A stretch of 64,000 nt of DNA from an uncultured Muribaculaceae bacterium (GCA_944321865.1 CALUMZ010000004.1:1-64000); one strand, 5' to 3'; shown: positions 7,178 through 43,793, counted from the first letter of the stretch. The notes: generated by a model from the sequence alone, not told the origin. Numbers and translations are program-made.

Positions 7178-7184
7178 CAACTTG

Positions 7185-7220
7185 ACAAGAGCGAATCGAG
7201 ATTTATCGGTTCGCTCTTGT
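7185..7220 (+). terminator. Terminator after tRNA-Arg
   Basis: ACAAGAGCGAA (7185-7195) and TTCGCTCTTGT (7210-7220) form a perfect 11-bp stem just after the tRNA, followed by a moderately T-rich stretch. Confidence 0.75.
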
Positions 7221-7263
7221 TATGTTTCTTGCTCATTATTAGCCACATTCCCAAGAAAAATCG

Positions 7264-7271
7264 TAACTTTG
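7264..7271 (+). promoter_or_regulatory. -7 box of the GH31-like gene
   Basis: TAACTTTG fits TAnnTTTG and lies about 75 bp before the ATG at 7347. No convincing -33 box is visible at the usual distance. Confidence 0.5.
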
Positions 7272-7346
7272 TATCGGCGACTTCTGCTTCAGCCAAGTGG
7301 CAACAGGGGTAGCACGCACACAACAATACCATCATGATTAATCGCC

Positions 7347-9503: not shown

Positions 9504-9581
9504 CAAAAAAAAACGGGACACGTTCATAAATCCGGCACACACTAATAAAACCGATTTAAGGAATTATTTAACAATAAATTA

Positions 9582-9611
9582 TTGGAATACGGCGTTTTTT
9601 ATCTAATTTTG
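9582..9611 (+). promoter_or_regulatory. Promoter of topA-panB
   Basis: TTGG at about 9582 and TAATTTTG at 9604-9611 with about 19 bp between them. The predicted leader is near 110 nt. Confidence 0.65.
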
Positions 9612-9726
9612 CGGCGATTTTTGCGCGACCTGCACAATCGGTTGCAGACATAGCTCCGTTCACAAGCTGTGTAACAGCACTTTTTTCAATCTCTCAATTA
9701 CACTCACACAAGGCTCAACGATATTT

Positions 9727-12066
9727 ATGCCACACAATTTAGTAATAGTAGAATCACCGGCAAAAGCCAAGACGATAGAAAAATTTTTGGGCAAAGACTA
9801 CAAAGTCATGTCGAGTTACGGACACATACGCGACTTGCACAAAAAGGATTTCAGCATCGACACGGCTCACGGATTCACCCCCATCTATGAAATTCCCGCA
9901 GAAAAAAAGGAACTTGTAAAAGAGCTCAAGAAAGCTGCCGACAATGCCGACATGGTGTGGCTCGCTTCCGATGAAGACCGGGAAGGAGAAGCCATCGCGT
10001 GGCACTTGTATGAAGTTCTCGGGCTGACTCCCGAAAAAACACGGCGCATCGTGTTCCACGAAATAACCAAGCCGGCCATATTACATGCCATCGAGAACCC
10101 TCGCAACATCGACTACAACCTTGTCGATGCCCAACAGGCACGCCGCGTGCTCGACCGCATTGTGGGTTTTGAATTGTCGCCGGTATTGTGGAAAAAAATC
10201 AAACCCGCACTGTCGGCCGGACGGGTACAGAGCGTGGCTGTGAGGCTAATCGTGGAGCGAGAAAAAGAGATTGCCGCATTCGTGAGCGAGCAATTCTACC
10301 GAGTAGTGGCACAAATGCACCTTGCCAACGACAAGAACGCACGGCTCAATGCCGAACTCAACCACCGCTTGCCCGACAAGAAAGCGGCCACCGCATTGCT
10401 CGAGGCCTGCAATGGGGCGCAATTCACCGTAGGCGACATCACAGTCAAACCGCTCAAGAAATCTCCGGCACCACCATTCACCACATCGACATTGCAACAA
10501 GAAGCCGCACGCAAACTTGGCTTCACCGTGTCACAAACAATGATGGTTGCCCAGAAATTATATGAATCGGGACACATCACCTACATGCGTACCGACTCGG
10601 TCAACCTGTCGTCGCTTGCAATAAATGCCATCAGCCAAGAAATAACAGAAAACATCGGCGAACAATACCTCAAAGTGCGGCATTACCACACCGTGTCGAA
10701 AGGCGCGCAAGAGGCCCACGAGGCAATACGCCCCACCTACATCAGCAACCACACCATAGCAGGCACGGCACAAGAAAAACGGCTGTACGAGCTTATATGG
10801 AAACGCACCATCGCATCGCAAATGGCCGACGCACAGATAGAAAAAACCGTAGCCGATATTGCCATTCCCGGCCGTAGCGAGAAATTCGTCGCCACGGGCG
10901 AAGTGATAAAGTTCGACGGATTCCTCAAAGTATACATCGAAACACACGACGACGATAACGCCTCCGAGCCAAACGGAGACGACAACATGTTGCCAAAGAT
11001 GAAGCGCGGCGACACGCTCGATGCCGACTGCATCACAGCCACCCAGCGCTTTACGCAACAGCCGCCACGATACACCGAAGCATCGCTGGTCAAGAAGCTC
11101 GAAGAACTCGGCATTGGCCGCCCGTCCACATACGCGCCTACAATATCGACCATCCAAAACCGCGATTATGTCGAAAAAGGCGAGAAAAAAGGCTCTGAAC
11201 GCAAATATGAAATTGTGGAACTGAAATCGGGCAAAATCTCGACAAAACAAAAAACAGAGAACACGGGTGCCGACAAAGGCAAACTTATCCCTACCGACGT
11301 CGGCATGGTGGTAAACGACTTCCTGCAAGAATATTTCCCGCAAATAATGGACTACAACTTCACGGCAAAAATAGAACGCGAATTTGACGAAATTGCCGAT
11401 GGCGAGGTGAAGTGGAACGACGGCATAAGCAAGTTCTACGACAAGTTCCACCCCGAAGTGGAAAATGTGTCGAAATTGCGCCTCGAACACAAAGTGGGAG
11501 AACGGCAGCTGGGAATCGACCCCAAAAGCGGCCGCCCGGTGTCGGTAAAGATAGGGCGATTCGGCCCGTTGGTGCAAATAGGCACCGCCGATGGCGAAAA
11601 CAAGCCGCAATTTGCCTCGTTGCAAAAAGGGCAATCGGTAAGCACCATAACTCTTGAGGAAGCCCTCAAGCTGTTTGACCTGCCCCGCACATTGGGCAAC
11701 TTTGAGGATAGCCCGGTGAGCGTCGGTGTGGGACGTTTCGGCCCATACGTCAAGCATGCCGGGAAATATGTGTCGATACCCAAAAGCCTGTCGCCACAGC
11801 AAATCACCCTCGACGAGGCCATCGACCTTATCAAGGAGAAACGCACAAGCGAAGCCCAAAAAGTTGTGAAATCGTTCCCCGAAGATCCCGACCTTGAAGT
11901 CCTTAACGGGCGTTATGGCATATACATTTGCTACAAAAAGAAAAATTACAAGATTCCCAAGGGAACCGATGCCGCATCGCTCACCTACGAAGACTGCAAA
12001 GCAATAATTGCCGACGAAGCAAATGCGCCCAAAAAGCGCACCACACGCCGGACGGCAAAAAAATAA
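9727..12066 (+). CDS. topA: DNA topoisomerase I (type IA)
   Basis: Relaxes negative supercoils by transient cleavage of a single strand. It has 779 residues. The TOPRIM domain is at the start (LVIVESPAKAKTIEKFLG, with SDEDREGEAIAWH around residue 80), and the catalytic tyrosine is Tyr286 in ITYMRTDS. The C-terminus has topoisomerase C-terminal repeats (three GRFGP/GRYGI-type units) in place of the Cys4 zinc ribbons of E. coli TopA, and a basic tail. This arrangement is normal for Bacteroidota. panB begins 34 bp after the stop and is probably co-transcribed. Confidence 0.97.
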   Translation: MPHNLVIVESPAKAKTIEKFLGKDYKVMSSYGHIRDLHKKDFSIDTAHGFTPIYEIPAEKKELVKELKKAADNADMVWLASDEDREGEAIAWHLYEVLGLTPEKTRRIVFHEITKPAILHAIENPRNIDYNLVDAQQARRVLDRIVGFELSPVLWKKIKPALSAGRVQSVAVRLIVEREKEIAAFVSEQFYRVVAQMHLANDKNARLNAELNHRLPDKKAATALLEACNGAQFTVGDITVKPLKKSPAPPFTTSTLQQEAARKLGFTVSQTMMVAQKLYESGHITYMRTDSVNLSSLAINAISQEITENIGEQYLKVRHYHTVSKGAQEAHEAIRPTYISNHTIAGTAQEKRLYELIWKRTIASQMADAQIEKTVADIAIPGRSEKFVATGEVIKFDGFLKVYIETHDDDNASEPNGDDNMLPKMKRGDTLDADCITATQRFTQQPPRYTEASLVKKLEELGIGRPSTYAPTISTIQNRDYVEKGEKKGSERKYEIVELKSGKISTKQKTENTGADKGKLIPTDVGMVVNDFLQEYFPQIMDYNFTAKIEREFDEIADGEVKWNDGISKFYDKFHPEVENVSKLRLEHKVGERQLGIDPKSGRPVSVKIGRFGPLVQIGTADGENKPQFASLQKGQSVSTITLEEALKLFDLPRTLGNFEDSPVSVGVGRFGPYVKHAGKYVSIPKSLSPQQITLDEAIDLIKEKRTSEAQKVVKSFPEDPDLEVLNGRYGIYICYKKKNYKIPKGTDAASLTYEDCKAIIADEANAPKKRTTRRTAKK

Positions 12067-12099
12067 CATATATCTTCATGTATTAAAACAATTTAAATT

Positions 12100-12921
12100 A
12101 TGTCAACTTACACAGCCGAAGATAAACGCAAAGTCACCACACACCGCCTCATAGAAATGAAGCAACGCGGTGAAAAAATATCCATGCTCACGGCATACGA
12201 CTACTCGATGGCAAAACTCATCGACGAAGCAGGCATGGATGTTATCCTTGTAGGCGACTCGGCATCAAACGTAATGGCAGGCAACGTCACCACGCTGCCC
12301 ATGACACTCGACCAAATGATTTATCACGGGAAATCGGTAATGAAAGCCGTCAACCGGGCACTTGTGGTTGTAGACATGCCCTTTGGAACCTACCAAGGCA
12401 ATCCATTGGAAGCATTCTCATCGGCAGTGCGCATCATGAAAGAGACACATGCCGACTGCGTAAAACTCGAAGGCGGGTCTGAAATACGCGAATCTATCGA
12501 GAAAATCTTGTGTGCAGGCATTCCCGTGATGGGACACCTCGGACTTACTCCGCAATCAATCAACAAGTTCGGAACATACGCCGTGCGCGCCAAGGAGAAA
12601 GCCGAAGCCGACAAGCTAATCAGCGATGCACGCATGTTGCAAGAAATAGGCTGCTTTGCCCTCGTGCTTGAAAAAATCCCGGCAACACTCGCAAAGCAGG
12701 TGGCCGACGAGCTTTCAATACCGGTAATCGGCATCGGTGCCGGCGGAGGCGTTGACGGCCAAGTATTGGTTATGCACGACATGCTCGGCATCAACATGGG
12801 ATTCTCGCCAAGGTTCCTGCGCCGTTACGCATCGATAGGCTCCACCATCATCGAAGCTGTGGGCAACTACATTAACGACGTGAAAAGCGGTGATTTCCCC
12901 AACGAGAAAGAACAATACTAA
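12100..12921 (+). CDS. panB: 3-methyl-2-oxobutanoate hydroxymethyltransferase
   Basis: First committed step of pantothenate synthesis: transfers a hydroxymethyl group from 5,10-methylenetetrahydrofolate to alpha-ketoisovalerate, giving ketopantoate. It has 273 residues, the normal length. The signatures [28 protein letters not shown] and DMPFGTY are visible, as is the late [17 protein letters not shown] segment. It is a cytosolic decamer in the family. No panC or panD is adjacent. Confidence 0.96.
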
Positions 12922-20900: not shown

Positions 20901-20997
20901 CCACTATCAAAGTATATAAATTTTGAACCTTTTTTTATAGCAAATCGGCCATTAGGCTTTGGCCTGTATAAAATTAACAATCAAAACAAAAAACGAC

Positions 20998-21435
20998 ATG
21001 AAAAAGATTTTAAAATTACTGTTTTTCCCTCTCTTCTTATTGAGCCTGTCGGCATGCGGAACCGAAATCGACAACCGTATTTATGAAGCCGCCGATGCCC
21101 TAGACAATACTGACTATGAAGATGCCCAAAACATCTGTGACCGCACAATAAACAGATATTGGGACGAAATGACACTCGAAAACAAATGCGACCTTGCTGC
21201 TATATACGCAGTATTGTACTCAGAAATGGATGGCGATGAGAATGACAAGCACAACATTGGTATGCTCAAAAAGTGCTATTCTTCAGCAATGGACGAAGAC
21301 TCAAAGGCAACACGCGAGTATCTTAACTCTTTAGAAGATGGGGCACATGACGCTATTGAATTAGTGATAGAAATGACCGATTGGGCAAATGAATTGGAAG
21401 ATTTAGGGGATGATTTGGAAGACTTAGGTTATTAA
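20998..21435 (+). CDS. Small acidic lipoprotein, paralogue A
   Basis: A 145-residue lipoprotein: MKKILKLLFFPLFLLSLSAC signal with a lipobox, then a helical, strongly acidic body. It is clearly a duplicate of the gene at 22267: the identical segment LENKCDLA, the CDR motif and ATREYLNS are shared, as are the bases around the start codon (aaacgacATGAAAAAGAT). Function unknown. An upstream in-frame ATG at 20959 lacks a signal sequence. Confidence 0.75.
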   Translation: MKKILKLLFFPLFLLSLSACGTEIDNRIYEAADALDNTDYEDAQNICDRTINRYWDEMTLENKCDLAAIYAVLYSEMDGDENDKHNIGMLKKCYSSAMDEDSKATREYLNSLEDGAHDAIELVIEMTDWANELEDLGDDLEDLGY

Positions 21436-22266: not shown

Positions 22267-22728
22267 ATGAAAAAGATTTTAACATTACTGTTTTTCCCCA
22301 TCTTTTTATTGGGATTATCGGCGTGCGGGAACGAAATCACCAACCAAATCAACGAAGCCGCCGAAGCTGTGGAAAACTCCGACAATGAATTGGCACAAAG
22401 CATCTGCGACCGCATCGTTGACGAGCATTGGGACGACCTGACACTCGAAAACAAATGCGACCTTGCAGTCCTATATGTGTCATTTCTTGAATTAGACCTA
22501 ACCGGCGGAGAAAATAATGAACACAACTTGGAGATGCTCAAGCAGTGTTACACTTCGGCAAAGGAAGAAGACCCTGACGCTACGCGCGAATACCTCAACT
22601 CAATGCAAGATGGCTTCACCGGCACTATTGAAGTGTTTATAGGAGGCGACTGGCTGAATGAATTTGAAGAATCGGGTATTGATATCGAAGGATTGCAAGA
22701 TGTTCACCCCGACGAATTAGGGTATTAA
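22267..22728 (+). CDS. Small acidic lipoprotein, paralogue B
   Basis: A 153-residue paralogue of the protein at 20998, with the same signal peptide (MKKILTLLFFPIFLLGLSAC) and a matching helical body (LTLENKCDLAVLY). The C-terminus diverges (FIGGDWLNEFEESG). The duplication includes the start-codon context, which argues for a direct duplication of about 1.27 kb spacing. It ends the plus-strand cluster and meets the Ser/Thr kinase gene convergently. Confidence 0.75.
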   Translation: MKKILTLLFFPIFLLGLSACGNEITNQINEAAEAVENSDNELAQSICDRIVDEHWDDLTLENKCDLAVLYVSFLELDLTGGENNEHNLEMLKQCYTSAKEEDPDATREYLNSMQDGFTGTIEVFIGGDWLNEFEESGIDIEGLQDVHPDELGY

Positions 22729-22754: not shown

Positions 22755-24689
22755 TTATTCGTATAGCTCGGAATCAAAGATGGCATCCACGGTGCCATCT
22801 TTTTTGTTATGTTCATCCATCATTTCAATAGTCTTTGGGTCATATACGCGATAAACCCATGTACCGTCTTCCTGCAATTTGCCTTCTTTAACCCTACCGT
22901 CGGGCAACGTTTCGGTAGTCGATTCAACCATGAAATAGATACCGGTACGCTCACTTGCCGCACGCAATTTTGCCGCACCTATGACTATATTGGCATCTTC
23001 AATGCTCTTAATCGTGGAAAGAACTATCTCCCAACTTTGCTCATACAAAGCCGATTTCTTTGCCACACGCTCCGAAAGCCACTCATCGGCTTGGCTTTTT
23101 GCCAAATGCCGCCAAAACCCTATGTTTGCCTTTACATAAGAATCCTTGGTCGTCAAAGTATCGCACAAGTTCAAATATCCCACATAATTGCGGAATGCCG
23201 CAATAGTTGCCATTCTGTAAGCCTGCTCATTTAACGGCACTGCCTGTCCCGCGCCGTAAAGCCTTGAAATCTTGTCTTCGACCAATGGGCGGTATAACAT
23301 GCGCAACTCATTATATTTAAAATCGGTATAGTAATCAGCAATTTCATAATAACTGCCTGCTTGCTTTCCGGCATCTCCTGTGGCGACATCTTTGTCTATC
23401 CATTTATGGACTTTATCTTTCACCTGCTCACGCAATCCGCCAGCCAAACGGCAACCGGCAATCACGTTCTCCACATCATCGGGGGTGCGCGCGCCGTCAA
23501 TGCGCTTTACCACATCAAGCATACTTGAACATACTATGGAATATACATCTGCTTCAATGTCATAAACTTTTGGCTCCGAAGAATAAGGCGGACGTTCGGC
23601 AAGCATAACCTGTTGCCCGAAAAAGTCATTGACCGACGGAACTACACCCAAGGCCGACGGCAATGAGTCCTCCACTGCCCCGGCGGGCTGTTGCCTATCA
23701 TCGGCAGCAACGGCAGACTGCCTCCCGGCATAGGACGAGGGAGTATCAGGCGACATGCTTTGCCGCTGATTTGATATGGCCGCATCTCCGGCAGGCGGGA
23801 GTTCTTGCAATGTATCGGATGACGAAACAAGCACGTCTTGCCGTGAAACGGTGGCAATTTTCAAAATGGCAACCAACCCGACGGCAGAAATCATTGCAAC
23901 CGCGATTGCAATGCGCAACCATGCGTTACGGCGATGCCTTGCGGCAATCATTGCTGGTATCTCATCGGCTCGCCGGGGGCGGTCGGCGGGATTTGTGGCA
24001 AAGCAGCGGCGAGCGACGTGGCGCATCGCCCGGTCGCAGCCGGGCATCTCGCTCATTATCTTGCCCAAGGCATAGATGTCGGCACGGCAGTCGACTGTCG
24101 CGCCTGCCTCGGTTTGCTCGGGTGCGGCATACGCCCTTGTTCCGGCCGAAGCCTTCAAGACGGCATAACTGTCGGTATCGGCATACCCAAAATCGATGAT
24201 TTTGACATGGTTGCCATTGGCCGTAATCAATATGTTTTCGGGCTTGAGGTCGCGGTGAACCACCTGATGCTTGTGAATATATGCCAACGCACTGCATGTT
24301 TCTGACACAATCTGCCCTACACTCTCCCCCGGGGTGAGCAGATTCCCGGCGATGCACTCGCGCAGCGTCAGCCCGTCGACATATTCCATGACGATGCACG
24401 GCCCGAGGTCGGGAACCTCCTCCATGCCGAGCGTTTGCGCCACATTGGGGTGCGACAGGCCGTAACCTATCTCAAATTCCTTGACAAGCAAGCGGCGAAA
24501 CAACGGATCGGCGGCACAGCATGGCTTCAATGCCTTCAGCACAAACCACTTGCCGTGCCGCATTGCCTTGTAAAGCACACAGTGGCTTCCGGGCGAAGAG
24601 TTCCCAAGCAATGTGACATTCTCAAACCGCTGCGAAAATATCACATCGTCACGACCCGCATCAAAAAAAACTGAATCCTCGTCGCCCAT
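22755..24689 (-). CDS. Membrane-bound eukaryotic-like Ser/Thr kinase
   Basis: A 644-residue protein with an N-terminal cytosolic kinase domain: catalytic Lys52 (VLKALK), HRDLKPEN at 145-152 with Asp147, DFG at 166-168 and APEQ at 189-192. The glycine loop is poor (LGNSSPGSH), but the other catalytic residues are intact, so it is probably active. One transmembrane helix lies at about 256-278. The ~365-residue extracytoplasmic part has helical stretches and no domain I recognise. It starts 6 bp after the stop of a hybrid histidine-kinase-like gene, so the two form an operon. Unusual for Bacteroidales, where two-component systems dominate. Confidence 0.9.
   Translation of the reverse strand: MGDEDSVFFDAGRDDVIFSQRFENVTLLGNSSPGSHCVLYKAMRHGKWFVLKALKPCCAADPLFRRLLVKEFEIGYGLSHPNVAQTLGMEEVPDLGPCIVMEYVDGLTLRECIAGNLLTPGESVGQIVSETCSALAYIHKHQVVHRDLKPENILITANGNHVKIIDFGYADTDSYAVLKASAGTRAYAAPEQTEAGATVDCRADIYALGKIMSEMPGCDRAMRHVARRCFATNPADRPRRADEIPAMIAARHRRNAWLRIAIAVAMISAVGLVAILKIATVSRQDVLVSSSDTLQELPPAGDAAISNQRQSMSPDTPSSYAGRQSAVAADDRQQPAGAVEDSLPSALGVVPSVNDFFGQQVMLAERPPYSSEPKVYDIEADVYSIVCSSMLDVVKRIDGARTPDDVENVIAGCRLAGGLREQVKDKVHKWIDKDVATGDAGKQAGSYYEIADYYTDFKYNELRMLYRPLVEDKISRLYGAGQAVPLNEQAYRMATIAAFRNYVGYLNLCDTLTTKDSYVKANIGFWRHLAKSQADEWLSERVAKKSALYEQSWEIVLSTIKSIEDANIVIGAAKLRAASERTGIYFMVESTTETLPDGRVKEGKLQEDGTWVYRVYDPKTIEMMDEHNKKDGTVDAIFDSELYE
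22776..22806 (+). terminator. Terminator embedded in the opposing kinase gene
   Basis: AAAGATGGCA (22776-22785) and TGCCATCTTT (22793-22802) form a stem with a 7-nt loop followed by a T run. It serves the plus-strand lipoprotein gene but lies within the last codons of the convergent kinase gene. A second 8-bp hairpin (AGCTATAC/GTATAGCT, 22743-22768) surrounds the kinase stop codon. Confidence 0.65.
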
Positions 24690-24695
24690 GCCACC

Positions 24696-27020
24696 TTACT
24701 TACCTTGCAATTTAGAGGTGAATGCCGGGAACCCACTCAAGTGCTTGCGGCACATAGCCAGCAAGTCATCACGATTCACGGGCTTCACAAGATAGTCGTT
24801 TGCCCCGGCAGTCATGGCATCTTCCACCTGCGACTTGGAATTAGATGGCAGCACGGCCACGATGGGCAACACGGCCGAATATGCGCGAATGCTCTCGATA
24901 GCCTTCAGTCCGCTGTCCGACGACAAGTTGACCCCGGCAAGCACCATGTTGATGTTTTTGGTGTTGCAAGCCATCAATGCTTCATCGGCATTGTGTGCAT
25001 GAACGAGCCACACGTTGGTGCCGAGGCGTTCCATCAATACCTTCAGATACAAGAACGACGTGCTTTCGGCCTCGACGATGAGCACCGTGGGATAATTGGG
25101 GTCGGCAATCACTGCGCCCGACCCGTTTACGTTGTCATCGATTTTCAGCGGCAGGCGCAACGTGAAAGTTGTCCCAACACCCTGCGTCGACTTAAACGTG
25201 AGTGTGCCTTGCAGCAATTGCGCGTTGCGCTGCGCTATGGTAAGTCCCAACCCCATCTTTTCATGCAAGTTAAGCAAGTCGGGTTGATGCCCGTCGAAAA
25301 TCTGCGTCAGCAACATTTGCCGCCGTTGCGGAATGCCTATGCCGGTGTCGTTCACCGAAATCAATATATTCTTGCCGTCATCGGCTATGCGGTAGCCAAA
25401 TGTGATTTTGCCTTGTGCCGTATACTTCAAGGCATTGTCGAGCAGGTGGTAAATTATTTTGGAAATTCGTTCACGGTCGCTCACAATATGGCTATCCTCG
25501 TCCTTCAGCGGCAGCACCATGTTGATGGCCACGGCGCGCTCGCTCACGATTATCTTGAAGTCTTCGTAAATGTCGCGCAGCAGGTCGTTGATGCACACGT
25601 CGCCCACGTTCACCCGCGCCCCGCTTGAATACGACTTCGAGAAGTCGGCAATGTCGTCGATGGCCTGCTTCATCTTCAGCGCCGAGTGGCTTATTATTTT
25701 CCCATACCCGATGATTTCTTCCTGTTTCAACCCCGGGGTCGACAATATTTCGGTAAAGTCGTCGATGGTGTTAATTGGAGCCTTCAATTCACGTGCGAGA
25801 TTCTCGATAAACGCACCGCGGTAGGCATTCAGCCGGTCGGCCTCCTCCTTTGAACGCACAAGTTCCTCGTTAAGGGCATTCACCGTCTGATTGGTGATTT
25901 TCAGGTAACGCTTGAGCTTGCGGTTGCGGATGCTCGATATTGCCATAAACACCACCACCATCAGCACCACGACGGCAGCAATCAACGTGTAAGGCCAATA
26001 TTTGCTTTCCGACGAGAACAGTCCCGGCGGCTCGTTGATTATGCGGCTGCCGGCGGGCAGAGCCGAAGTGTCGATGCCGAAGCGCACCAATTCGTTGTAA
26101 TCAAACACGTAATACAACTTGTTTGCATTGTTTATCGGTATTGATGCCACATTCTCACCGGCAAGCAACCGGGCCACCATCCGGCCGGCCGCCTGCCCCT
26201 GTTCATACTGCGAGACCATCTGCCCGCCCAACACCCCGCGACCGAGGCCGTGAGACCACAGGTGGAACAATGGCGATTGCAAGTTAGATGTAATCAGGTT
26301 AAGACTTTCATAGAAACTTTTTGTTTCCCCGTGACAGTCGGTATAGGCCGACAACAACAATACAGGAATATCAGCCGGAATCAGGCGCAACGTATCGGCA
26401 AGGGCTTCGAATGAAATCCCATTCAAGTCGATTATTTCATAATCGCTCCAAGCAAGCGTGGCTGCCGAAGAAAACGCATCAGAGTCGGCACGGCCCGTCA
26501 AAGTCCCGTCGGAAATGGCTATGGCACGCGGCGAGTTGGGGAACAGGTTTTTCATCAGCCGTATTGTACCATTCAATCCCAACGACTCCACCACTCCCGT
26601 CATGCCGGGGTTGGACTCTTGTTTCATTGCCATACGCTCGTTGTTGACACCAAGGAATACAATAGGAACACCGGCAAACAGGCTGTCTTGGCGCGACAGA
26701 GCAAACGCGAAAGCATTATCATCGGCCACCACCGCCACGTCGTAACGGGGCAACCGGGCGAGCTTGAATGCAAGACGCTCCTCAAACGAGCGCACATTGC
26801 CGGCTTCGGGGAAACGCTTGCAGTCCATTTCCTCGACGTCAATCGCCACCGAGTCGGCGTTCAACACCGACCGCAAGCCTTCTAATTGCCTGTGCACCGT
26901 AGGAAACGACATGTCATAAGAAGTTATGTACAATATGTTCCTTTGTGTGAAAGCTTTTGCCTGCGGCAAGCAACAAGCAACAAGCAACAATGCCATAAAA
27001 ACATGCCTAAATACCATCAT
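24696..27020 (-). CDS. Hybrid histidine-kinase-like protein lacking phospho-acceptors
   Basis: A 774-residue protein: signal peptide, a periplasmic ABC-substrate-binding-like sensor (about 25-335), a membrane helix at 344-362, a HisKA-like helical pair, an HATPase domain with N box (LLDNALKY, ~526-533), G1 (NDTGIGIP) and G2 (MGLGLTIA), then a receiver-like domain (644-760). In the HisKA motif the phospho-accepting His is Arg410 (NLARELKAP, codon CGT). In the receiver, the phospho-accepting Asp is Gly696 (VLAGVNL), and the acidic pair reads Glu-Ala. The conserved receiver Lys746 remains. It should bind ATP but cannot relay phosphate in the usual way. First gene of an operon with the Ser/Thr kinase. 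Confidence 0.85.
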   Translation of the reverse strand: MMVFRHVFMALLLVACCLPQAKAFTQRNILYITSYDMSFPTVHRQLEGLRSVLNADSVAIDVEEMDCKRFPEAGNVRSFEERLAFKLARLPRYDVAVVADDNAFAFALSRQDSLFAGVPIVFLGVNNERMAMKQESNPGMTGVVESLGLNGTIRLMKNLFPNSPRAIAISDGTLTGRADSDAFSSAATLAWSDYEIIDLNGISFEALADTLRLIPADIPVLLLSAYTDCHGETKSFYESLNLITSNLQSPLFHLWSHGLGRGVLGGQMVSQYEQGQAAGRMVARLLAGENVASIPINNANKLYYVFDYNELVRFGIDTSALPAGSRIINEPPGLFSSESKYWPYTLIAAVVVLMVVVFMAISSIRNRKLKRYLKITNQTVNALNEELVRSKEEADRLNAYRGAFIENLARELKAPINTIDDFTEILSTPGLKQEEIIGYGKIISHSALKMKQAIDDIADFSKSYSSGARVNVGDVCINDLLRDIYEDFKIIVSERAVAINMVLPLKDEDSHIVSDRERISKIIYHLLDNALKYTAQGKITFGYRIADDGKNILISVNDTGIGIPQRRQMLLTQIFDGHQPDLLNLHEKMGLGLTIAQRNAQLLQGTLTFKSTQGVGTTFTLRLPLKIDDNVNGSGAVIADPNYPTVLIVEAESTSFLYLKVLMERLGTNVWLVHAHNADEALMACNTKNINMVLAGVNLSSDSGLKAIESIRAYSAVLPIVAVLPSNSKSQVEDAMTAGANDYLVKPVNRDDLLAMCRKHLSGFPAFTSKLQGK

Positions 27021-27229: not shown

Positions 27230-27260
27230 TTGTATTTTAACTCTAATTTGTATATTTTTG
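27230..27260 (+). promoter_or_regulatory. Promoter of the RecQ-like fusion gene
   Basis: TTG at 27230-27232 and TATTTTTG at 27253-27260, with 20 bp between them. The leader to the ATG at 27325 is about 58 nt. Confidence 0.6.
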
Positions 27261-27324
27261 TCATTACAACATAATCAAGTGACATTGCAACGGCATAAAC
27301 CATAATTATGCTTCATCAGGAACA

Positions 27325-30300
27325 ATGGAGACCTTCAAATCGCTGGTAGAAAACGAGAAAAGTGTTTCAATAGATAATTTGAAACAAATAAGCACGCTAT
27401 TATCGACCAATAGCGATGCCGATAATACACACCCTGCCACCGACACCGAAGAGCAGCTGATGAACAAATTCATAATTGACAACGCCGACGCCGTAAAGCA
27501 TTGCATGCAAGCGGCATACAATCTCATAAACGCCAAGCATCTCACCGGAGGCATCAACATCATCGACTGGAATTGCGGACAAGGACTGGCAACGGTTAGC
27601 TTCAATGACTTTATTGCCGGGAAATGCCCCGAAGCAAGCATAAAATCGGTAAAACTGATAGAGCCATCGGGCTTGTTGCTCGACCGGGCAGCAACCGTGG
27701 TCAAGGCAGCATGCCACATCGACGACATAAAGTGCATAAATCGGCCTGCAACCGATGTAATAGCCGACAATCTGCGATTTGCCGGTGGCACGGTGATACA
27801 TATCTTCAACAACCTGCTCGACAGGGAGGGGCTCGATTTCAAAAACACAGTTACACGCCTGACGGCCAACAGCGACTGCGCCAATATCGTCGTAGGCTGC
27901 AGCCCGTGCTATTTCCAAGGCAACCGACGCATAAAAGCCTTTGTCAATTACCTTGGCAATGCCGCAAAAGAAGTAAAGATATGCCGCAACAAAGCCGGCA
28001 GTGAAAGCATATTTGCATTCGTAATCGACTCGAAACACATCAACAACCGGTACAAACCATCTTACTTCGGTGCAGCCTACATGCTTGAATGCATCGGCAA
28101 CAATGCCAAAGCCGTGCAACAAATGTACCGTTGGAAAAATGCGGAAGTATATTGCCCGTTCTTTGCCGAATCACAAATAAGCGACGACATCCACCCCTTG
28201 CTTGCCATAGCCAACAACATAATATCTCGCGGGCTGCCCACGCATGCATCTCCCGGCATGGAGCAGACGTTTGCCATCTCATTTGGATTGACCCACCGCA
28301 CAACAAGTGGCAACAAGCTATGTTACGAAAGCAACATGGACAAGGCGTCGGAACGCGAATTGATACAATGCCTGTCACGCGGGCTTGGCAAAAACGCTGC
28401 CATCAACCAGTTGGCATTCACCCCGATTGAGGTGGCACGCTTGCACAAGGTTGCCATCGAAGCAATGATCTCGGGACGCCTCGACATAAATGCCCAATAC
28501 TGGAACATACTCATAATCGAAAACGATGTGCCATGCGCCGCCATCGCCATGAGAGACCTTGAAGAGCTTTTCGGCAACATTGCAAAAACGACTGCCGAAT
28601 ACAGCCATTTGTCATTGCCGCAAATACGCCTTGACATCATCTCAGGTGAACAATATGCCTGTTCGCCGTTACACTTGGGATATGCCCCATCAACAAGCCT
28701 GCAAAAACAGCACTTGCGCCGCACCTACGACATGGTGATAGAAACATCGATTGACCGGTGCGGGCAGAAAGAGCCTGAACTGCCCAACCTGTCGGCCCGA
28801 AACAGTTGCATATTCAGCATATACTCGGCCAATCCCCGGATGCCGATATCCAAAAGCATATACACACTGAATAAAATAAGTTACGACAATACAGCCGGGC
28901 ATGGCTACCTGCTCAGCCACCTGTTTAAATGCTTCGATGCCAACAACGACACAAACCGAGCAATCGGCAACGCATTACAGGGCAAGCCCACAATGATAAG
29001 CACCTTTGATAATTCATCGGGGTTCATGACGGCTGTCGCTGCCGCAATGTTACAACCGGGCTTGGCAATAGTGGCATCGATTACCGAAACCGACACAAAA
29101 ATCAGGTGCTGCAACTTGCAGGCCGCAGGCATTGATTGCTGCATGCTATACAAGCAAATGCCATCCGACGCATTTGAATCGGCATTGGCATCATTGGAAG
29201 ATTCGAGCGTGCAATTCGTCAGCCTACAATCACAGTTGCTACTCGATGTAGACATAATGCGCAGACTGTCTTCGCTCAAGCGGCAGCGCATATTCTTTTC
29301 CACAATCATCATCTGCGATGCCGAGGCCATATCGATATGGAGCGACAACTTCAGTGCCATCCACAGGCAGGTTGCAGCCACGGTACGCAAGCACCTTGCT
29401 GCCCCCGACGAAGAACTGAATACAATAGCCGTTACCCAAGTCATGCCGCAAGATGTGTCGGACGACATAATGTCGACCTTGTCTCCCGGCAATATGCCGT
29501 ACAATCCCGAAAACATCGTTCGGACCGATTGCTCATGTCGCAGCAACCTTCAATTTGCAATAGAACAACCCACCAATACGCCCTACGACACCGACGAAAC
29601 AGCATCGGTTATCAACGACATTGACGATTTCGATGCCATACAAAAGTCAAAAATAGCGTATGCCGGCGAATACCTGCACCGACTGCCCCTCCAACTGCGT
29701 CTCTTGCAGCAGGAAACTGTGGCGGCATCTACAATGCCCGACAATTATTACCTTGCCACAAAAAACAGATTCGAGCACGCCGGAGTAATATTCACTCGTC
29801 GCAACTATGCCGGAGAAGTTGAAAAGGGATTGGAGAAAAACGGGATAAAAGCATTGTCGCTGTTCACATCGGAATATGAAGACAATGATGACGCTTCACT
29901 AAGATTTTCGGAATTCATCGACAATAAAGCACCATTAATCATAGCTCAAACGGGCACAACCCCCTGTTTTGACAAACCAAACATACGGTTTGTCATAAAT
30001 CTTTGCCGCCCCGACTCGATAGAAGACTTAATGGCAAGCGCAAGTGTGTGCGGACTTGACGGGCAGGCAGCCTTAATTACTACATTTTTCCAAAATTTCG
30101 GCTTGGTCCGACCCACCAACGACAACATTCCCGAACCGATTGCATTCACCAAAGGCCACTGGATAAATGCCTGCGCACTCGAGAGCCTGTGCACAAAGCA
30201 TGGCATAGACCCGGCAGAACTGCAAACTGAAATATTCGACCCCACACACGACCTGATTCGATTAAATTGCGCCATCGACAACGACATATTCATGTCGCAC

Positions 30301-31545
30301 CTGTGCAATTATTGCAAAGAGAGAAGCAATTGCACGCTGTTAAACAGCACAAACTTGCCGACGGGCTGGATTCCTGCCGACAAATATGCCGATTATCTCT
30401 CAAGAAACAGCATCGCCTCCCACGAGACGGCAAACGAATCGCTGGCACAAAGTTACAACATTGCCATGCCTGCAATCGACAACAAGCAACACTGCATGGC
30501 AACATGCCGCAACTTGTTGCATAAGTTATTGCACACCTGTACATTGTCGACCGAAAACGGGAATTATGCCAACGGGCTGACCGAATTATTGTCGGGCATG
30601 GACACCGACAAAACTGCATACGCGGCCATATCAATCGACAACAATAGCGACTTTGAGAACATGGAAATCGCAGCAACAGCACTCTGCTACCTTGGCATAA
30701 TAGGTGTTGTCGATGAATTCCATACCGACAACACAAGAAAACAATTGCTGCTGCAAGTTTCAAACAAGCCCGAAGGTTTCTATTGCCGCAGGCTATTGCA
30801 ATTGCTCCTATGCCACCTTCCCCGGCACGAAGCCGAAGATATTGCCTCGGAAGCATGCAATTGCGACAGTGATTGTTGCGAACCGGAAAATGCCTTGTCG
30901 GCATTGCTCGATTTCATCGAGCGCAAAAGCCATGCAGCCTCGGAGCGCAAACTCATTGACATAAATGACTTGTGCATCTTGGCCACCGAAAACAAAGATT
31001 GCACAGACTCTAACGAATACATAAAGAAATATATTCACAATTACTACAATTCCCCTTTCCTGCATGATGCATGCGGCAACGAAGATGACCATGACGGCAA
31101 TTTCCTTGACATAGATACCCGGCATGGACGCGAATCTTCGTTAGACATATTATGCAAATACATCAGGCTGATGGCATCGCTTGACAATGACAGAATCCAA
31201 CAATTACACGGAGCCGTGCGCCGTCTGCTACGTTTGTCGACCGGCAACGGAACTCTCTCAATGCTCGATGCCCTGTGCATGATGTCGCTGCACTTTGACT
31301 GCTCAAGATTGCTTGCCGACCGCATTGCCGACGCATACGGCAAGGGGTATGAACAGCTTAGAGCACAGGAACACAACGTATTCCATCACCGTTGGAACAA
31401 TGAAATAAAACCGTTGCTACACTCATGCAACCCAGCTATATCTCGGCAAATGGCAACCTTGACAGGCTATGAACTGAGAATTGAATTAAAGGCACATAAT
31501 GAATGGTTGAATAAATTTATAAACAGATATGGCACAGGAAAATAA
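27325..31545 (+). CDS. Methyltransferase-like / eroded RecQ-like helicase fusion
   Basis: A 1406-residue cytosolic protein. Residues ~40-240 resemble a class I methyltransferase: INIIDWNCGQG (78-87) is motif I, KLIEPS (110-115) motif II. A middle region (~260-500) is unassigned. From ~545 to ~925 the order of RecQ helicase blocks can be followed, but key residues are missing: the Walker A GGGKS position reads DNSSGF (562-567), the DEAH box reads CDAEAISIW (664-672), the aromatic loop reads WSDNF, and motif VI reads ASVCGLDG (906-913) without the arginines. The second RecA-like lobe is still recognisable at DKPNIRFVINL (883-893). The C-terminal ~450 residues are helical. Probably a non-helicase scaffold, though methyltransfer or DNA binding remains possible. 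Overlaps the next gene by 17 bp. Confidence 0.65.
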   Translation: METFKSLVENEKSVSIDNLKQISTLLSTNSDADNTHPATDTEEQLMNKFIIDNADAVKHCMQAAYNLINAKHLTGGINIIDWNCGQGLATVSFNDFIAGKCPEASIKSVKLIEPSGLLLDRAATVVKAACHIDDIKCINRPATDVIADNLRFAGGTVIHIFNNLLDREGLDFKNTVTRLTANSDCANIVVGCSPCYFQGNRRIKAFVNYLGNAAKEVKICRNKAGSESIFAFVIDSKHINNRYKPSYFGAAYMLECIGNNAKAVQQMYRWKNAEVYCPFFAESQISDDIHPLLAIANNIISRGLPTHASPGMEQTFAISFGLTHRTTSGNKLCYESNMDKASERELIQCLSRGLGKNAAINQLAFTPIEVARLHKVAIEAMISGRLDINAQYWNILIIENDVPCAAIAMRDLEELFGNIAKTTAEYSHLSLPQIRLDIISGEQYACSPLHLGYAPSTSLQKQHLRRTYDMVIETSIDRCGQKEPELPNLSARNSCIFSIYSANPRMPISKSIYTLNKISYDNTAGHGYLLSHLFKCFDANNDTNRAIGNALQGKPTMISTFDNSSGFMTAVAAAMLQPGLAIVASITETDTKIRCCNLQAAGIDCCMLYKQMPSDAFESALASLEDSSVQFVSLQSQLLLDVDIMRRLSSLKRQRIFFSTIIICDAEAISIWSDNFSAIHRQVAATVRKHLAAPDEELNTIAVTQVMPQDVSDDIMSTLSPGNMPYNPENIVRTDCSCRSNLQFAIEQPTNTPYDTDETASVINDIDDFDAIQKSKIAYAGEYLHRLPLQLRLLQQETVAASTMPDNYYLATKNRFEHAGVIFTRRNYAGEVEKGLEKNGIKALSLFTSEYEDNDDASLRFSEFIDNKAPLIIAQTGTTPCFDKPNIRFVINLCRPDSIEDLMASASVCGLDGQAALITTFFQNFGLVRPTNDNIPEPIAFTKGHWINACALESLCTKHGIDPAELQTEIFDPTHDLIRLNCAIDNDIFMSHLCNYCKERSNCTLLNSTNLPTGWIPADKYADYLSRNSIASHETANESLAQSYNIAMPAIDNKQHCMATCRNLLHKLLHTCTLSTENGNYANGLTELLSGMDTDKTAYAAISIDNNSDFENMEIAATALCYLGIIGVVDEFHTDNTRKQLLLQVSNKPEGFYCRRLLQLLLCHLPRHEAEDIASEACNCDSDCCEPENALSALLDFIERKSHAASERKLIDINDLCILATENKDCTDSNEYIKKYIHNYYNSPFLHDACGNEDDHDGNFLDIDTRHGRESSLDILCKYIRLMASLDNDRIQQLHGAVRRLLRLSTGNGTLSMLDALCMMSLHFDCSRLLADRIADAYGKGYEQLRAQEHNVFHHRWNNEIKPLLHSCNPAISRQMATLTGYELRIELKAHNEWLNKFINRYGTGK

Positions 31546-32317
31546 TGCTCAAGAAATATTAAACTCGCTGGCTCAGCTCGAATCTTCACTCAAACAAATA
31601 GAATCTGCCCGGCAGCAAGTTGAAGAAGTTGTAAAATCGGCAACGGCCATAAATGGCTCGCTCGAAAACTATACCCGGTCGCTCAACGCACTCACCGATG
31701 CCGTAAAAGAATTTATCGCCACGGCACAAGAATGCAAGAAATCAGATGTCGAGAATACAAACTTGCGATTAGGGGAATTATGCGACAAACTCGAAAACAA
31801 AATCGACAAACTCGGGCAACCAAGTTCCCAACAGTTTGTGCCGGCACAGCAACCCAATAATGAACACAGCCTGACCGATATAGTTGCAGTGGGTGAAATG
31901 CTATTGCCCATAAAGGCCCAACTTGACGACATTAATTCAAAATTAGAACACTTGCCACACGCAGCAAGCAACGACAATGCCACACGATTATTGATTGAAG
32001 CCAACACTAAAATCGAATCCGTCGATTCAAAGCTGAAAGAAATCACCCTCACCACCGCTTCACAAAGTGCCTCCAAGCCGCTTAACACCGAAGATGCCGC
32101 AATTTCCTCCGACGCATTAAAAGAATTTGAAGAACGATTGAACCTTATATCCAAAGATGTCATGGTGATGCGAAACAGCACACATTCCATCTTGAAAAAC
32201 ATGGAAACTCAGCTCATCGACCGCTCGAGCAAGGAAGGCCGCATGTCGTTGATTATAGCAATCGGCGCACTTGTGGTGGCAATAGCCATATTGCTAAAGC
32301 TATATGGTGCCATCTGA
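31529..32317 (+). CDS. Coiled-coil protein with C-terminal membrane anchor
   Basis: A 262-residue protein, mostly long helices with heptad-like patterns (LAQLESSLKQIESARQQVEE, ~15-35; further coils at ~130-230). It ends with one hydrophobic helix (LIIAIGALVVAIAILLKLY, about 240-258) and no N-terminal signal, so it should be tail-anchored with the coil in the cytosol. Its start lies inside the last codons of the RecQ-like fusion gene, which implies coupled translation and a physical partnership. Its stop abuts that of the convergent SDR gene. No named family is recognised. Confidence 0.75.
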   Translation: MAQENNAQEILNSLAQLESSLKQIESARQQVEEVVKSATAINGSLENYTRSLNALTDAVKEFIATAQECKKSDVENTNLRLGELCDKLENKIDKLGQPSSQQFVPAQQPNNEHSLTDIVAVGEMLLPIKAQLDDINSKLEHLPHAASNDNATRLLIEANTKIESVDSKLKEITLTTASQSASKPLNTEDAAISSDALKEFEERLNLISKDVMVMRNSTHSILKNMETQLIDRSSKEGRMSLIIAIGALVVAIAILLKLYGAI

Positions 32318-39560: not shown

Positions 39561-42500
39561 TTAGTCAAGGATCACAAAACATGCCCATTTGAACGGGCTT
39601 GAAGGATATTCCTCCTTGAGTTGCAGTTGGGTGTCGCGGAAAGCCTTGTGCAAGTCGCCATGCTCAAGCAAGCGACGGTAAAACGAGGTTATGAATTCCG
39701 ACCCAGCCTTGTCGTTGACCGACCACAAGCTCGACACAATAGCTCCGGCTCCGGCCAACTTGAAGCCGCGTTGCAGCCCGTCGATACCCTCGTTCATGTC
39801 GGGGAACCCGAGGCCTGTTTCGCAAGCACTGAGCACCACCAATTTCACCGTCGAAAAGTCGAGTTCGGCAATCTCGTTGGCCGTGAGTATGTTGTTCTCG
39901 TTCATCGACACTTCGCGCTCGCCGTGCCACGACGGGTTCCCGTCGGACAGCACAAGGCCGCTGCGCTGCATGGGAGACAGCGACTGAGGGTCATAACCGG
40001 CATACAGCGTCCTCCATTGAGGGAAATCGGTACCGCGGTAAAATCCATGCGTTGAAATCTGGAACACGTCAAACGGCACACTGCTGCACGAGTCGATAAA
40101 TGCCTCGGGAACATCAAGCCCGGTGCGATAAGTAGTCGAAATGCCACCCGATTTAAGTATGTCGTTGACTTGGGCAGTTTCCTTGTCGGAGAACGGCAAA
40201 TGCTGCCACTCGCTACGATTGAGCGTGGAATCACGGTCATATATTATGCCACCGCACACAAGCGCGCGGTCGATTGCCGGAAAGCCCTTGTCGGTATCGG
40301 CAAGCAGCAAGGCCGTGTTTGACATCATGCGCATGTCATACCGCTCAATCAGGCACCGCCCCGAAGTGTCGGCAAGAGCCGAAAACGCCACGGTAAACAA
40401 TTTGCCTACCGGGCTGTAATAAACCCTGTTTATTCCCGACAAATGCTCGTCGACAGGCTGCCACAGCATGGCATACATGGCATCGCCGCGGTTGTTGCGG
40501 CGCAGGCGCGTGGGCTTCTGGTAAATGGCATTAATGCGTGCTTCCTCCTTAATCATGTCGACATTGCGCAGCGAGTCAAGCTGGCGCTCGGTAAGCAACG
40601 GCACATACTCAGGCTTTCGGCTGTCGTGCCGCACCACAAGCGCGGCATAACGGTTGCTCATTGCCACCGAGTCCCATAATTGCACCATTTCCACAGCCGC
40701 CTCGTCGCGACGGAGCCGCTTTTTTATATCCTTCCATGTAGCATCGTTCTTAGCCTTCTCGTTGCGGTACACGGCCGAGCGGTTTGCTATCGAGGCATCG
40801 AGGCGGTTGATTTTGTTGCCAAGTTCGGCATAGCGATAAGACTCTTCGGGCGACATTACGGCACCGGTGCTTGCGTCAAGCCCCTTGCTCATGCCCATGA
40901 ATTCGCGGCGTAAGCCGGAAAGCAAGCCGTAATCCTTTATCAAAGCCGAGTCGCCTGATGCCATCACACTCTTGCGTATACCGGCCTCGCTGCGCGTAAG
41001 CACCCCCTTGAAGAACACCGCGGCATCGTATGCCAAGGCAGCCGCATCGCCCGTTTTCAACCGTCCTGCCAGATTGTAATAAAATCCGGGGTTCATCACA
41101 TTTCCCGACAAGGCAGCCCGGTCGTTACCGCTGATTGTGCTGTAAGTGTCGTTTACAGCACGGCGTGAATGCTCCAGCATCTTCCACGCGCTTTCCATCG
41201 CCTCGTCGTTGCGTCCCATCGCCGACAGCAACAATACGTCGGTGCGCAGGAAATTTGCTATGCTTATGTCTCCGCGCTTATCCTCAATCGAGGCATCCAA
41301 TATTTCCTTGTGCAGAGCGTATGCTTTGGCATACTCCCCTTTTATGGTGTAAATCTCAACCAACGATGATTTTGAATACTCCGGCTCGACGTTCATCTCG
41401 ATAGCCTTGGTGAAGCACGCCTCGGCCTCGTCCAACTCGTTCATGGTTGCACAAAACAATCCCTTGCTCACCAACACGTATCCTTGGAACATCGTGTCGT
41501 ATTCGCCACTTCCGGCCAATTCTTCATATCCCTCTATCACCGTTTTCATCTGCGAGTCATATTGCGTTGCCGTTTCTGCAAAGTTTTCGCCTGCCGTCAG
41601 CATCGTGCTCCTCATGCCACTCCACCAGTTAATCATGTTAGGCAACATCTTAACCCACATGGACAATAACGTTTTAGAGTTGTCTGACGCGCTTTTCTGC
41701 ATGATGTTAAAATATTGGTTCAACTTGCCCACATAATAAGACTGCGATGAAAACTCGTTTATCTCAGACGAAATATTAAACGCTTCAACCAACAATGTGA
41801 AATAGGGGTAACTGATTTGCTCGTCAATCTCCTCCAACTTCGCGATTGCTTTATCCAAAGTCGCGCGCATGTTTTTAATATCATTCCTGTAAGCATACAC
41901 TCTCGATAGCTTAACCACTGCATCGGCATAATTTGCCAATTGCCCGGGCAACAAGGCCGAAAGCATGTTGGCGGCTTGGTTGTAATATTCCACTGCCTCA
42001 TCAAGCCGTCCGTCGGGAAAAGAGGTGCAATAATCGCCATACAAGATGTAGGCATTCGCAAGATACACGGCATAGTCATACTTAAATGCCACTTCGTTCT
42101 TTGCCAACGAAATAATCTGCTTGATTATTTGCTCGCATTCCTCGTCTATCTCCTTTAACCAAGAAAGGGCACACGCCTTGCACACAAGAGCTTCAATGTA
42201 AACCTCCGGCATCGCCTTGTCTGATTTTTCATACCAGTCGCACACCCGCTCGGCATAACCGAGGCTTTTCCTGTGTTCTCCGCTTTGCAAATAAAAAAAA
42301 GAGAGCTGTTTCTCGCAATAAGCCACGCTTTCGGCATCCTTTAGTTTGCCGTAAGCGTCTGCAGCCTCGTGCATAATCACCAATGCGCTGTCGGTAGCGC
42401 CGGCAATGTTGTAAAGATAGTTAGCATACATGGCCGTGTTGTTGGCACGCTCGCTGTCGTCGGTCGCCATGCGGTTTGCGGCGGCGTATGCTTTTGCCAA

Positions 42501-43793
42501 CGCGTCTTTGATATTCTCGGTGCTACCAAGCTCGCCATACAGGAAAGCCAATGCCGTATAAGCCTTACGGCCGCCAACATCCGAAACCTCTGCGACAGCT
42601 TCGACACGCTTGGCAAATTCGTCAATGGTTTCTTTGGCCAATTCAGGTCGGCCAAACAGCCGGTAATCATCTATGCAACCTTTAAGGAACGAGAGTGCAA
42701 ATTGCGAATCGGCAGCCTCGTCGACCGACAAGAGGGCATGCAAGTCGATATACTCCCGCCACCCGGCATCGGCATCGCTGCCGCCCAACCTTATTTTTAT
42801 CGAGGCTATCCACCGGCTCACCGAATAAATCGAATATCGCACCGACTTAGATGGTATTTTGTCATACAATTCCCGGGACTTTTCCATCTCGGACAATGCC
42901 GTGGTATTATACCCTTGCCAATAATTGCACGTACCCAATATAAAATGCAACACAGCCTCCAAATCATCGGAGTAGAAATTTGTCGCCCGAATCTCGGAAA
43001 TAAAATTCTCTATCTCAATCAACGTCATCATCGGATTGCTGCTCATCAGAGCTTTAACTCCAAGGCAATTGACACGGACGGCGGCCCGGGTCCTTTCGCC
43101 CAACCCAAGATCTTCGGCCACCTTCATACATTCGTCGTAACAATCATCTAAATTGTCAATCGAGATGAAATTATAATTGGTATTGAGCAACAGCAGCCTT
43201 GCATACAGCAAGAACCGCTCCACCGTGGCTTCATAACTGCATGTCTGCAGGTAATCATACACTAAATGAACGTCTGGATTCATCTCCTCCCCTTCCGGAC
43301 AAAAGCGATAGCACTCTTCCTGTCGCAGCAAGAAAATCATTTTCCATTCATGCTGCCGCTCCCTGGGCATGTCGATGCGGCCTACAATATCCCATGCACG
43401 GTCAAACAGCGAATCGGCTCGCACATATTCCCTCTCGGTAATGCGACCGGCCCATATAGTATCGCAAAACAAGGCTTTCAAGTATGCCACTGTCTCCACA
43501 GCCCCGATAGATTCGAGCCTGCTGCGTATACCGTATGTCGCCGCACATTCGGCGGTTTCGAGATTTTCATATCGTCCATATTGGAACACGTCGGCAATAG
43601 AATCAACTGCCGGTATGGTATTGGCCACTTCCCGCAAGATAGCAATGCTCCCGATATCGTTAGATTCTAATATAATAGCCGTCAGTGCTGCATCAAGCCT
43701 TGCAACCTCGGCCGAGTCTGCCGCAGCATGTCTGGCAGCATAGTTGTGCAGAACTGCTGCCAACCCAAGTAACAGGATTGATAAACGTTTCAT
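39561..43793 (-). CDS. Exported TPR-CHAT caspase-like protein
   Basis: A 1410-residue protein with an N-terminal signal peptide (LSILLLGLAAVLHNYAA), a very long helical region with tetratricopeptide-like repeats (about 100-1000, such as AEACFTKAIEMNVEPEYSKS), and a C-terminal CHAT domain. The caspase-type catalytic dyad is intact: His1249 in ISTHGFYRG and Cys1324 in LSACETG. The closing segment GAGAIVSSLWSVND and the end FKWACFVILD are CHAT-typical. It should be a cysteine peptidase acting outside the cytosol, an unusual location. It follows a secreted PPC-domain gene (132-bp gap, no evident terminator), which may be a partner or substrate. Confidence 0.88.
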   Translation of the reverse strand: MKRLSILLLGLAAVLHNYAARHAAADSAEVARLDAALTAIILESNDIGSIAILREVANTIPAVDSIADVFQYGRYENLETAECAATYGIRSRLESIGAVETVAYLKALFCDTIWAGRITEREYVRADSLFDRAWDIVGRIDMPRERQHEWKMIFLLRQEECYRFCPEGEEMNPDVHLVYDYLQTCSYEATVERFLLYARLLLLNTNYNFISIDNLDDCYDECMKVAEDLGLGERTRAAVRVNCLGVKALMSSNPMMTLIEIENFISEIRATNFYSDDLEAVLHFILGTCNYWQGYNTTALSEMEKSRELYDKIPSKSVRYSIYSVSRWIASIKIRLGGSDADAGWREYIDLHALLSVDEAADSQFALSFLKGCIDDYRLFGRPELAKETIDEFAKRVEAVAEVSDVGGRKAYTALAFLYGELGSTENIKDALAKAYAAANRMATDDSERANNTAMYANYLYNIAGATDSALVIMHEAADAYGKLKDAESVAYCEKQLSFFYLQSGEHRKSLGYAERVCDWYEKSDKAMPEVYIEALVCKACALSWLKEIDEECEQIIKQIISLAKNEVAFKYDYAVYLANAYILYGDYCTSFPDGRLDEAVEYYNQAANMLSALLPGQLANYADAVVKLSRVYAYRNDIKNMRATLDKAIAKLEEIDEQISYPYFTLLVEAFNISSEINEFSSQSYYVGKLNQYFNIMQKSASDNSKTLLSMWVKMLPNMINWWSGMRSTMLTAGENFAETATQYDSQMKTVIEGYEELAGSGEYDTMFQGYVLVSKGLFCATMNELDEAEACFTKAIEMNVEPEYSKSSLVEIYTIKGEYAKAYALHKEILDASIEDKRGDISIANFLRTDVLLLSAMGRNDEAMESAWKMLEHSRRAVNDTYSTISGNDRAALSGNVMNPGFYYNLAGRLKTGDAAALAYDAAVFFKGVLTRSEAGIRKSVMASGDSALIKDYGLLSGLRREFMGMSKGLDASTGAVMSPEESYRYAELGNKINRLDASIANRSAVYRNEKAKNDATWKDIKKRLRRDEAAVEMVQLWDSVAMSNRYAALVVRHDSRKPEYVPLLTERQLDSLRNVDMIKEEARINAIYQKPTRLRRNNRGDAMYAMLWQPVDEHLSGINRVYYSPVGKLFTVAFSALADTSGRCLIERYDMRMMSNTALLLADTDKGFPAIDRALVCGGIIYDRDSTLNRSEWQHLPFSDKETAQVNDILKSGGISTTYRTGLDVPEAFIDSCSSVPFDVFQISTHGFYRGTDFPQWRTLYAGYDPQSLSPMQRSGLVLSDGNPSWHGEREVSMNENNILTANEIAELDFSTVKLVVLSACETGLGFPDMNEGIDGLQRGFKLAGAGAIVSSLWSVNDKAGSEFITSFYRRLLEHGDLHKAFRDTQLQLKEEYPSSPFKWACFVILD

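Follow-up and report, generated by a model that had tools for sequence, protein, structure and literature searches.

The catalytic cores of RecQ helicases (E. coli RecQ, human RECQL5 and BLM) have a two-lobe fold with a zinc/RQC-like continuation, and in E. coli RecQ an aromatic-rich loop located after motif II couples single-strand DNA contact to ATP hydrolysis. RecQ-like proteins also belong to other described systems: the Dpd 7-deazaguanine DNA system has the RecQ-like helicase DpdF, and PsyrTA has the RecQ PsyrT. The window, meaning the whole stretch of 64,000 nucleotides of an uncultured Muribaculaceae bacterium that was analysed, contained a gene pair whose large protein shared the two-lobe fold of RecQ and a putative zinc/RQC-like continuation. 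It differed from RecQ helicases by lacking the ATP-site and motif VI residues, and by adding methyltransferase-like, middle and C-terminal helical domains and a tail-anchored partner. PADLOC models of DpdF and PsyrT matched its helicase region (E of 4e-11 and 2e-8; up to 2e-69 in intact relatives). Reading the ORFs that surround the pair revealed no recognisable Dpd genes (DpdA-K) and, in contrast to PsyrTA, the pair was without the nucleotidyltransferase-like antitoxin PsyrA, its partner being a tail-anchored coiled coil. The window pair represents the degenerate extreme of a family that is widespread; its intact members are of RecQ type with nuclease-like or methyltransferase-like N-termini, and often occur in defence islands.

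The large gene (27325-31545, + strand) was an ORF of 1406 amino acids with zero internal stops. The same eroded protein occurred in four congeners at 45-50% identity and the frame was therefore not a chance open frame. For three congeners an internal TGA had been reported, and recoding or damage was rejected as its reading, as each TGA was the normal stop of a full-length ORF and the alignment had continued a few residues past the ORF end. Upstream on the same strand, TTG (27230-27232) and TAnnTTTG (27253-27260) were read from the sequence as putative promoter-like elements of the Bacteroidetes type. The encoded protein comprised a class I SAM-methyltransferase-like domain (residues 42-238; 27448-28038), delimited by structure model, fold search and family profile; a conserved middle region with an E-x-D-V-P-C block (residues 287-507; 28183-28845), delimited by alignments and dN/dS by part; two degenerate RecQ lobes (residues ~529-720 and 813-925; 28909-29484 and 29761-30099); a cysteine cluster at the position of the RecQ zinc subdomain (residues 981-1003; 30265-30333), placed by alignment and by the fold match over the RecQ core; and a C-terminal alpha-helical domain that ended in a conserved H-x-x-W-L-x-x-F motif (30478-31542; alignments and model). 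In the alignments, the window protein thus possessed the conserved middle and C-terminal domains of the RecQ/tail-anchor family.

A Pfam search of the large protein returned zero matches, and NCBIfam recQ matched it at E=8.6e-12. AlphaFold2 models built with family alignments as input reached a pLDDT of 86.8 for residues 1-560, and a pLDDT of 86.5 and a pTM of 0.87 for residues 490-1406, although these alignments contained intact relatives, so that the fold of the window protein, chiefly in the second model, was partly borrowed. The second model matched RecQ catalytic cores with Z of 22-24 over ~400 residues, and RecQ in Foldseek at E about 1e-16. Residues 42-237 matched the class I methyltransferase (Rossmann-like) fold with Z about 16 in the structure search. 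Both similarities that the original prediction had read from the sequence, an eroded RecQ and a methyltransferase-like N-terminus deduced from DWNCGQG, were hence recovered by profile and by fold.

The residues of catalysis were replaced in both lobes. Compared to the intact relative L037 (PTGGGKS, DEVH, QEAGRAGRD), the window protein had FDNSSGFM vs PTGGGKSL at the Walker A position, CDAE vs DEVH at motif II, and ASVCGLDG vs EAGRAGRD at motif VI. Walker A (GxGK[ST]) and the DEAH box were lost in 5/5 genus members (the window and four congeners); motif VI was partly retained in two congeners (CGRDG) and otherwise lost in the genus. From these substitutions, the RecQ region of the window would have lost both ATP binding and hydrolysis. 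The DKPNIRFVINL block of lobe 2 (residues 883-893) was kept, as were S670, W672 and F676 of the aromatic-rich loop in lobe 1. Among 17 aligned members without the Walker lysine, retention of the loop S, W and F was 1.00, 0.88 and 0.88, vs a core-consensus mean of 0.33. A protein that lacks the ATP site but keeps the loop would fit DNA binding without turnover; the three residues may instead have a structural role.

The partner gene (31529-32317, + strand) overlapped the large gene by 17 nt, and encoded a coiled-coil protein of 262 amino acids with a single C-terminal membrane helix identified by hydropathy (32243-32314); the overlap, the coiled coil and the single anchor were as originally predicted. 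A protein with a single C-terminal membrane helix was located directly downstream of the large gene in 92 of the 96 evaluable loci, at a median offset of -3 nt (≤50 nt in 86/92). By comparison, 16 of 588 other nearby ORFs had that layout. The pairing was not circular, because loci had been found by the large protein, and a chance neighbourhood was rejected as an explanation of the partner since the linkage was directional and tight. Three of the four loci without partner were at contig ends (two with the start of the partner visible), and one, L176, had none. The partner was kept in 37/44 degenerate members, the remainder being mostly at contig ends, and in 55/58 intact members. On the original question of whether both genes always occur together, the partner was near-obligate. 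Partners had almost no proline, many charged residues and a common N-terminal signature (IN-x-EL-x-KLQ-x-EL), with heptad-range periodicity in 86/92. In one congener, G005, the partner gene was broken at the contig end (L036 12725-13050, L129 9516-9878), and the C-terminal half of the partner, with the membrane helix, adjoined the epimerase at the end of another contig; this truncation may be an assembly break.

A contig scan with the window protein alone as the query yielded zero relatives because the sequences of the genus are too divergent, and queries with alignments recovered them. Searches with the middle domain found the pair in 36/393 genomes of the order and in 13/395 genomes of a phylum sample. 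When each species was represented by one genome, the scan yielded 80 loci that spanned Bacteroidales, other Bacteroidota, Ignavibacteria and Cloacimonadota, with single records labelled as Thiotrichaceae, Clostridium, Lachnospiraceae, Denitrovibrio and others, although labels of metagenome-assembled genomes can be wrong. After removing duplicates, 110 loci were analysed. A viral origin was unsupported: viral contigs gave one remote match, and a match in a phage record covered the methyltransferase only.

Among long members, 59/105 had helicase motifs I, II and VI intact, with L095 and L206 scored as intact despite a slightly deviating Walker A. Where the methyltransferase-like head was missing, members carried the motif EhDGxQH in the stretch that replaced it. 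Among them, Pfam REase_MTES_1575 matched one weakly (L120; E 0.001), and it also matched four members of the methyltransferase type (best 1.8e-4). The longest members of the latter type were L204 and L212 (about 1725-1746 aa); given those four matches, not resolved per protein, they are candidates for carrying methyltransferase-like and MTES_1575-like nuclease domains together.

In members without the methyltransferase-like head, helicase and nuclease-like motif were both intact in 38 and both lost in 36; the nuclease-like motif alone was lost in 4, and the helicase alone in 0 (Fisher p 4e-18, ignoring relatedness). Nearly all of the degenerate members of this type belonged to one clade (support 0.941), to which the four with an intact helicase belonged too, and the association therefore represents few independent events. 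Helicase motifs and the methyltransferase motif I glycine were lost together in two clades. In a FastTree phylogeny from which the helicase core was left out, parsimony required at least 7 changes for the Walker lysine, with about seven losses in Bacteroidales, at least 10 changes for the motif VI arginines, and one change for the methyltransferase-like head. The clade of the window was nested inside the methyltransferase clade, among intact members (support 0.995). The order of loss suggested is the head first, and the motor later and repeatedly.

Intact pairs were found in BREX loci with PglZ, BrxL, BrxC and a triad of kinase, VWA and PP2C genes (L037 and L122), with PglZ and BrxL (L087), and with BrxA, BrxB and BrxC (L149), although most of the pairs found were outside BREX loci. 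On plasmids, one intact pair adjoined the DISARM gene DrmE (Haliscomenobacter, L236), and another was within a restriction-modification stretch (Salinibacter, L237). Degenerate pairs tended to have conserved chromosomal surroundings (e.g. L044/L117). There were 222 matching PADLOC models near intact pairs vs 55 near degenerate ones, which is only a hint, the models being mixed and unassignable to proteins.

DUF1848 adjoined 15 loci of the methyltransferase type, and none in the genus of the window or in the Tannerella-type clade. In the L149 BREX locus, the position of DUF1848 just upstream of a methyltransferase-type pair was taken by a gene for an AlkB-like 2OG-Fe(II) oxygenase (7147-7761); nucleic-acid bases are a possible substrate of both. 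The methyltransferase-like module also occurred in a fusion with Sel1-like repeats, in another with a UvrD-like helicase, and on its own (L042 4421-8173, L043 6202-8544 and L041 6894-7655), in each case with a DUF1848-like gene just upstream or nearby. On a Moraxella osloensis plasmid (L239 6881-8473), a relative of the domain was split across two hypothetical genes, and an antiviral radical SAM gene of the viperin family lay ~3 kb away. A 730-aa ORF resembling the RecQ region of the family (L114 6597-8789) was immediately upstream, on the same strand, of a degenerate member (8809-12876).

The ancestor would have been a two-gene machine, in which a RecQ motor carried a nuclease-like or a methyltransferase-like head. 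DNA processing by the intact pair would take place at the membrane, and its defence-gene neighbours suggest that the DNA is probably foreign. The partner is pictured as a helical rod whose one C-terminal helix anchors it in the inner membrane, with its conserved N-terminal helices binding the C-terminal helical domain of the large protein. In the genus of the window, the enzymes would have been lost while the holding of nucleic acid or of a partner protein at the membrane remained, and the retained pair would be a scaffold, sensor, trap or tether kept by selection. We favour with reasonable confidence the reading that the window pair is a membrane-tethered pseudo-enzyme complex, derived from a probable defence helicase and kept as a scaffold, sensor or trap. 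A scaffold or sensor at the membrane, as proposed originally, was the best inference; the domains, the selection, the partner and, in the sources searched, the novelty of that proposal stood, but the locus was not an isolated oddity, as it belonged to a widespread family, and active methylation became less likely.

More tentatively, the family as a whole might be an undescribed defence system that crosses phyla, in which a RecQ helicase with a Vsr-like nuclease or a methyltransferase head is fixed to the inner membrane through an obligate tail-anchored rod and attacks DNA at entry; in Bacteroidales it would have turned repeatedly into a complex that is catalytically dead but selected, and whose role, in regulation or sensing, is new. 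If this is true, a membrane-tethered pair of RecQ with nuclease or methyltransferase joins the candidate anti-phage systems, and the family provides a natural series of a rare kind, with one motor inactivated on several occasions and the membrane partner kept. The role of a helicase scaffold after loss of its ATPase would become testable, and genes now annotated as 'DEAD/DEAH box helicase' and 'hypothetical protein' (e.g. WP_013769079/WP_013769080 and WP_012845333/WP_012845332) would receive a name.

The pair was present in 5/9 congeners, at one chromosomal site, flanked on one side by a sensor kinase or other genes and on the other by an NAD-dependent epimerase, and was not found in 4/9. In two of the latter (G001 and G004), the flanking genes were joined. 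In the window, a Ser/Thr kinase gene with a trailing region (22755-27020, - strand) adjoined a gene for a hybrid histidine kinase/response regulator whose sensor is ABC_sub_bind; the kinase that congeners had at this site was shorter and lacked the sensor. Two small lipoprotein-like genes that resemble each other (20959-21435 and 22267-22728, + strand; MKKIL.LLFFP.FLL.LSACG), for which no Pfam family was found, are apparently a local duplication. Farther downstream, a gene on the - strand (39561-43793) encoded a TPR protein of 1410 aa whose C-terminal domain matched CHAT (caspase-like peptidase; PF12770, E 7e-49). No obvious defence gene was near the window pair.

The patchy presence in the genus, with flanks joined where the pair was absent, together with the defence islands of intact relatives, would agree with a defence that still works. 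Phage nucleic acid would then be sensed or trapped at the membrane by the degenerate protein, which would need no helicase activity and would set off an outcome by way of its partner. The large gene also evolved faster than the neighbouring epimerase taken as control (pN/pS of 0.25-0.49 vs 0.07-0.17). Unlike a mobile defence gene, however, the pair of the genus was at one fixed site beside ordinary metabolic genes, several degenerate lineages had conserved chromosomal neighbours as well, and no effector domain was left except the membrane helix. A working defence is accordingly possible, on the unlikely side.

Full-length frames were maintained across the five species of the genus at 45-72% pairwise identity. 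In the two closest pairs, dN/dS was 0.13 (G008-G003) and 0.19 (G007-G005), these being rough estimates at high dS, which was near saturation in wider comparisons. By part, dN/dS was 0.06-0.14 in the middle region and highest in lobe 1 (0.19-0.23). The slowest-evolving part of the large protein was the middle region with its flanks, and not the methyltransferase-like domain. By these sequence comparisons the large protein is under purifying selection, which is loosest in the dead motor, and the selection originally deduced from the intact 4.2-kb frame was supported.

Selection that was strongest in the middle region and not in the motor would also suit a domesticated housekeeping tether, unrelated to phage, giving the membrane a link to, for example, the chromosome, RNA or a repair complex. 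Several Bacteroidales lineages apparently inherited the pair vertically, and the tail anchor and the coiled coil were retained after all catalytic motifs had gone. Such a tether would not be essential, however, since the pair was not found in four of the nine congeners and in ~9/10 of the sampled Bacteroidales genomes, and a housekeeping role is likewise possible, on the unlikely side.

A class I fold, with nearest solved folds that included tRNA methyltransferases, would allow the methyltransferase-like domain to be active, the dead helicase merely positioning it on nucleic acid at the membrane. The family profile of the head matched YecO/CmoA methyltransferases, and the domain kept most of motif I and the acidic residue after strand 2 (LIEPS). 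Motif I was, however, DWNCGQG in the window (residues 81-87) vs DWGCGQG in intact relatives. At its first glycine, all genus members had N, and the Tannerella-type clade, from which helicase motifs were likewise lost, had Q; every intact relative of the methyltransferase type had G or A at that position. Loss of the glycine in both groups makes active methylation less likely. The domain was not the part most constrained, and DUF1848, next to most of the intact loci of the methyltransferase type, was absent from the window locus and from the genome of the window. Judged by its motifs, the head of the window protein is probably inactive or weakened, and an active methyltransferase is improbable.

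A decaying relic, in which a former helicase system is turning into a pseudogene and no longer has a function, would account for the progressive erosion fastest in lobe 1, the joined flanks in two congeners and the partner gene interrupted at a contig end in another, but is very improbable given five divergent species with full-length proteins, dN/dS far below 1 over the whole protein, and repeated independent degeneration with retention of the pair.

Some intact pairs were inside BREX loci (PglZ/BrxL/BrxC or BrxA/BrxB/BrxC); BREX genes gave zero matches in positions 15001-45000 of the window, and the one PglZ-domain protein of the genome was on another contig and common to all nine congeners. 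The main text of a 2026 BREX survey (PMC12839542) did not mention RecQ, PP2C or DUF1848. VWA, PP2C phosphatase and kinase genes, as in TerY-P triads and CoCoNuT systems (PMC11090510), adjoined some intact pairs of the methyltransferase type (L037, L087 and L091), but the pair differs from CoCoNuT in having neither the McrB GTPase nor HEPN. RecQ was not mentioned in the main text of the CoCoNuT paper, nor in that of the DefensePredictor paper (PMC13092281). None of the PADLOC systems matched the pair as a pair. No description of it was found in the literature searched, mostly open papers, an earlier mention elsewhere being possible, and the original statement that no described system has this pair agreed with the sources searched. 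Plasmid copies were annotated solely as 'DEAD/DEAH box helicase' or 'RecQ family' and 'hypothetical protein'. Relative to these known systems, what is new here is the partner and the repeated pseudo-enzyme state, in a helicase-based, probably defence-derived kind.
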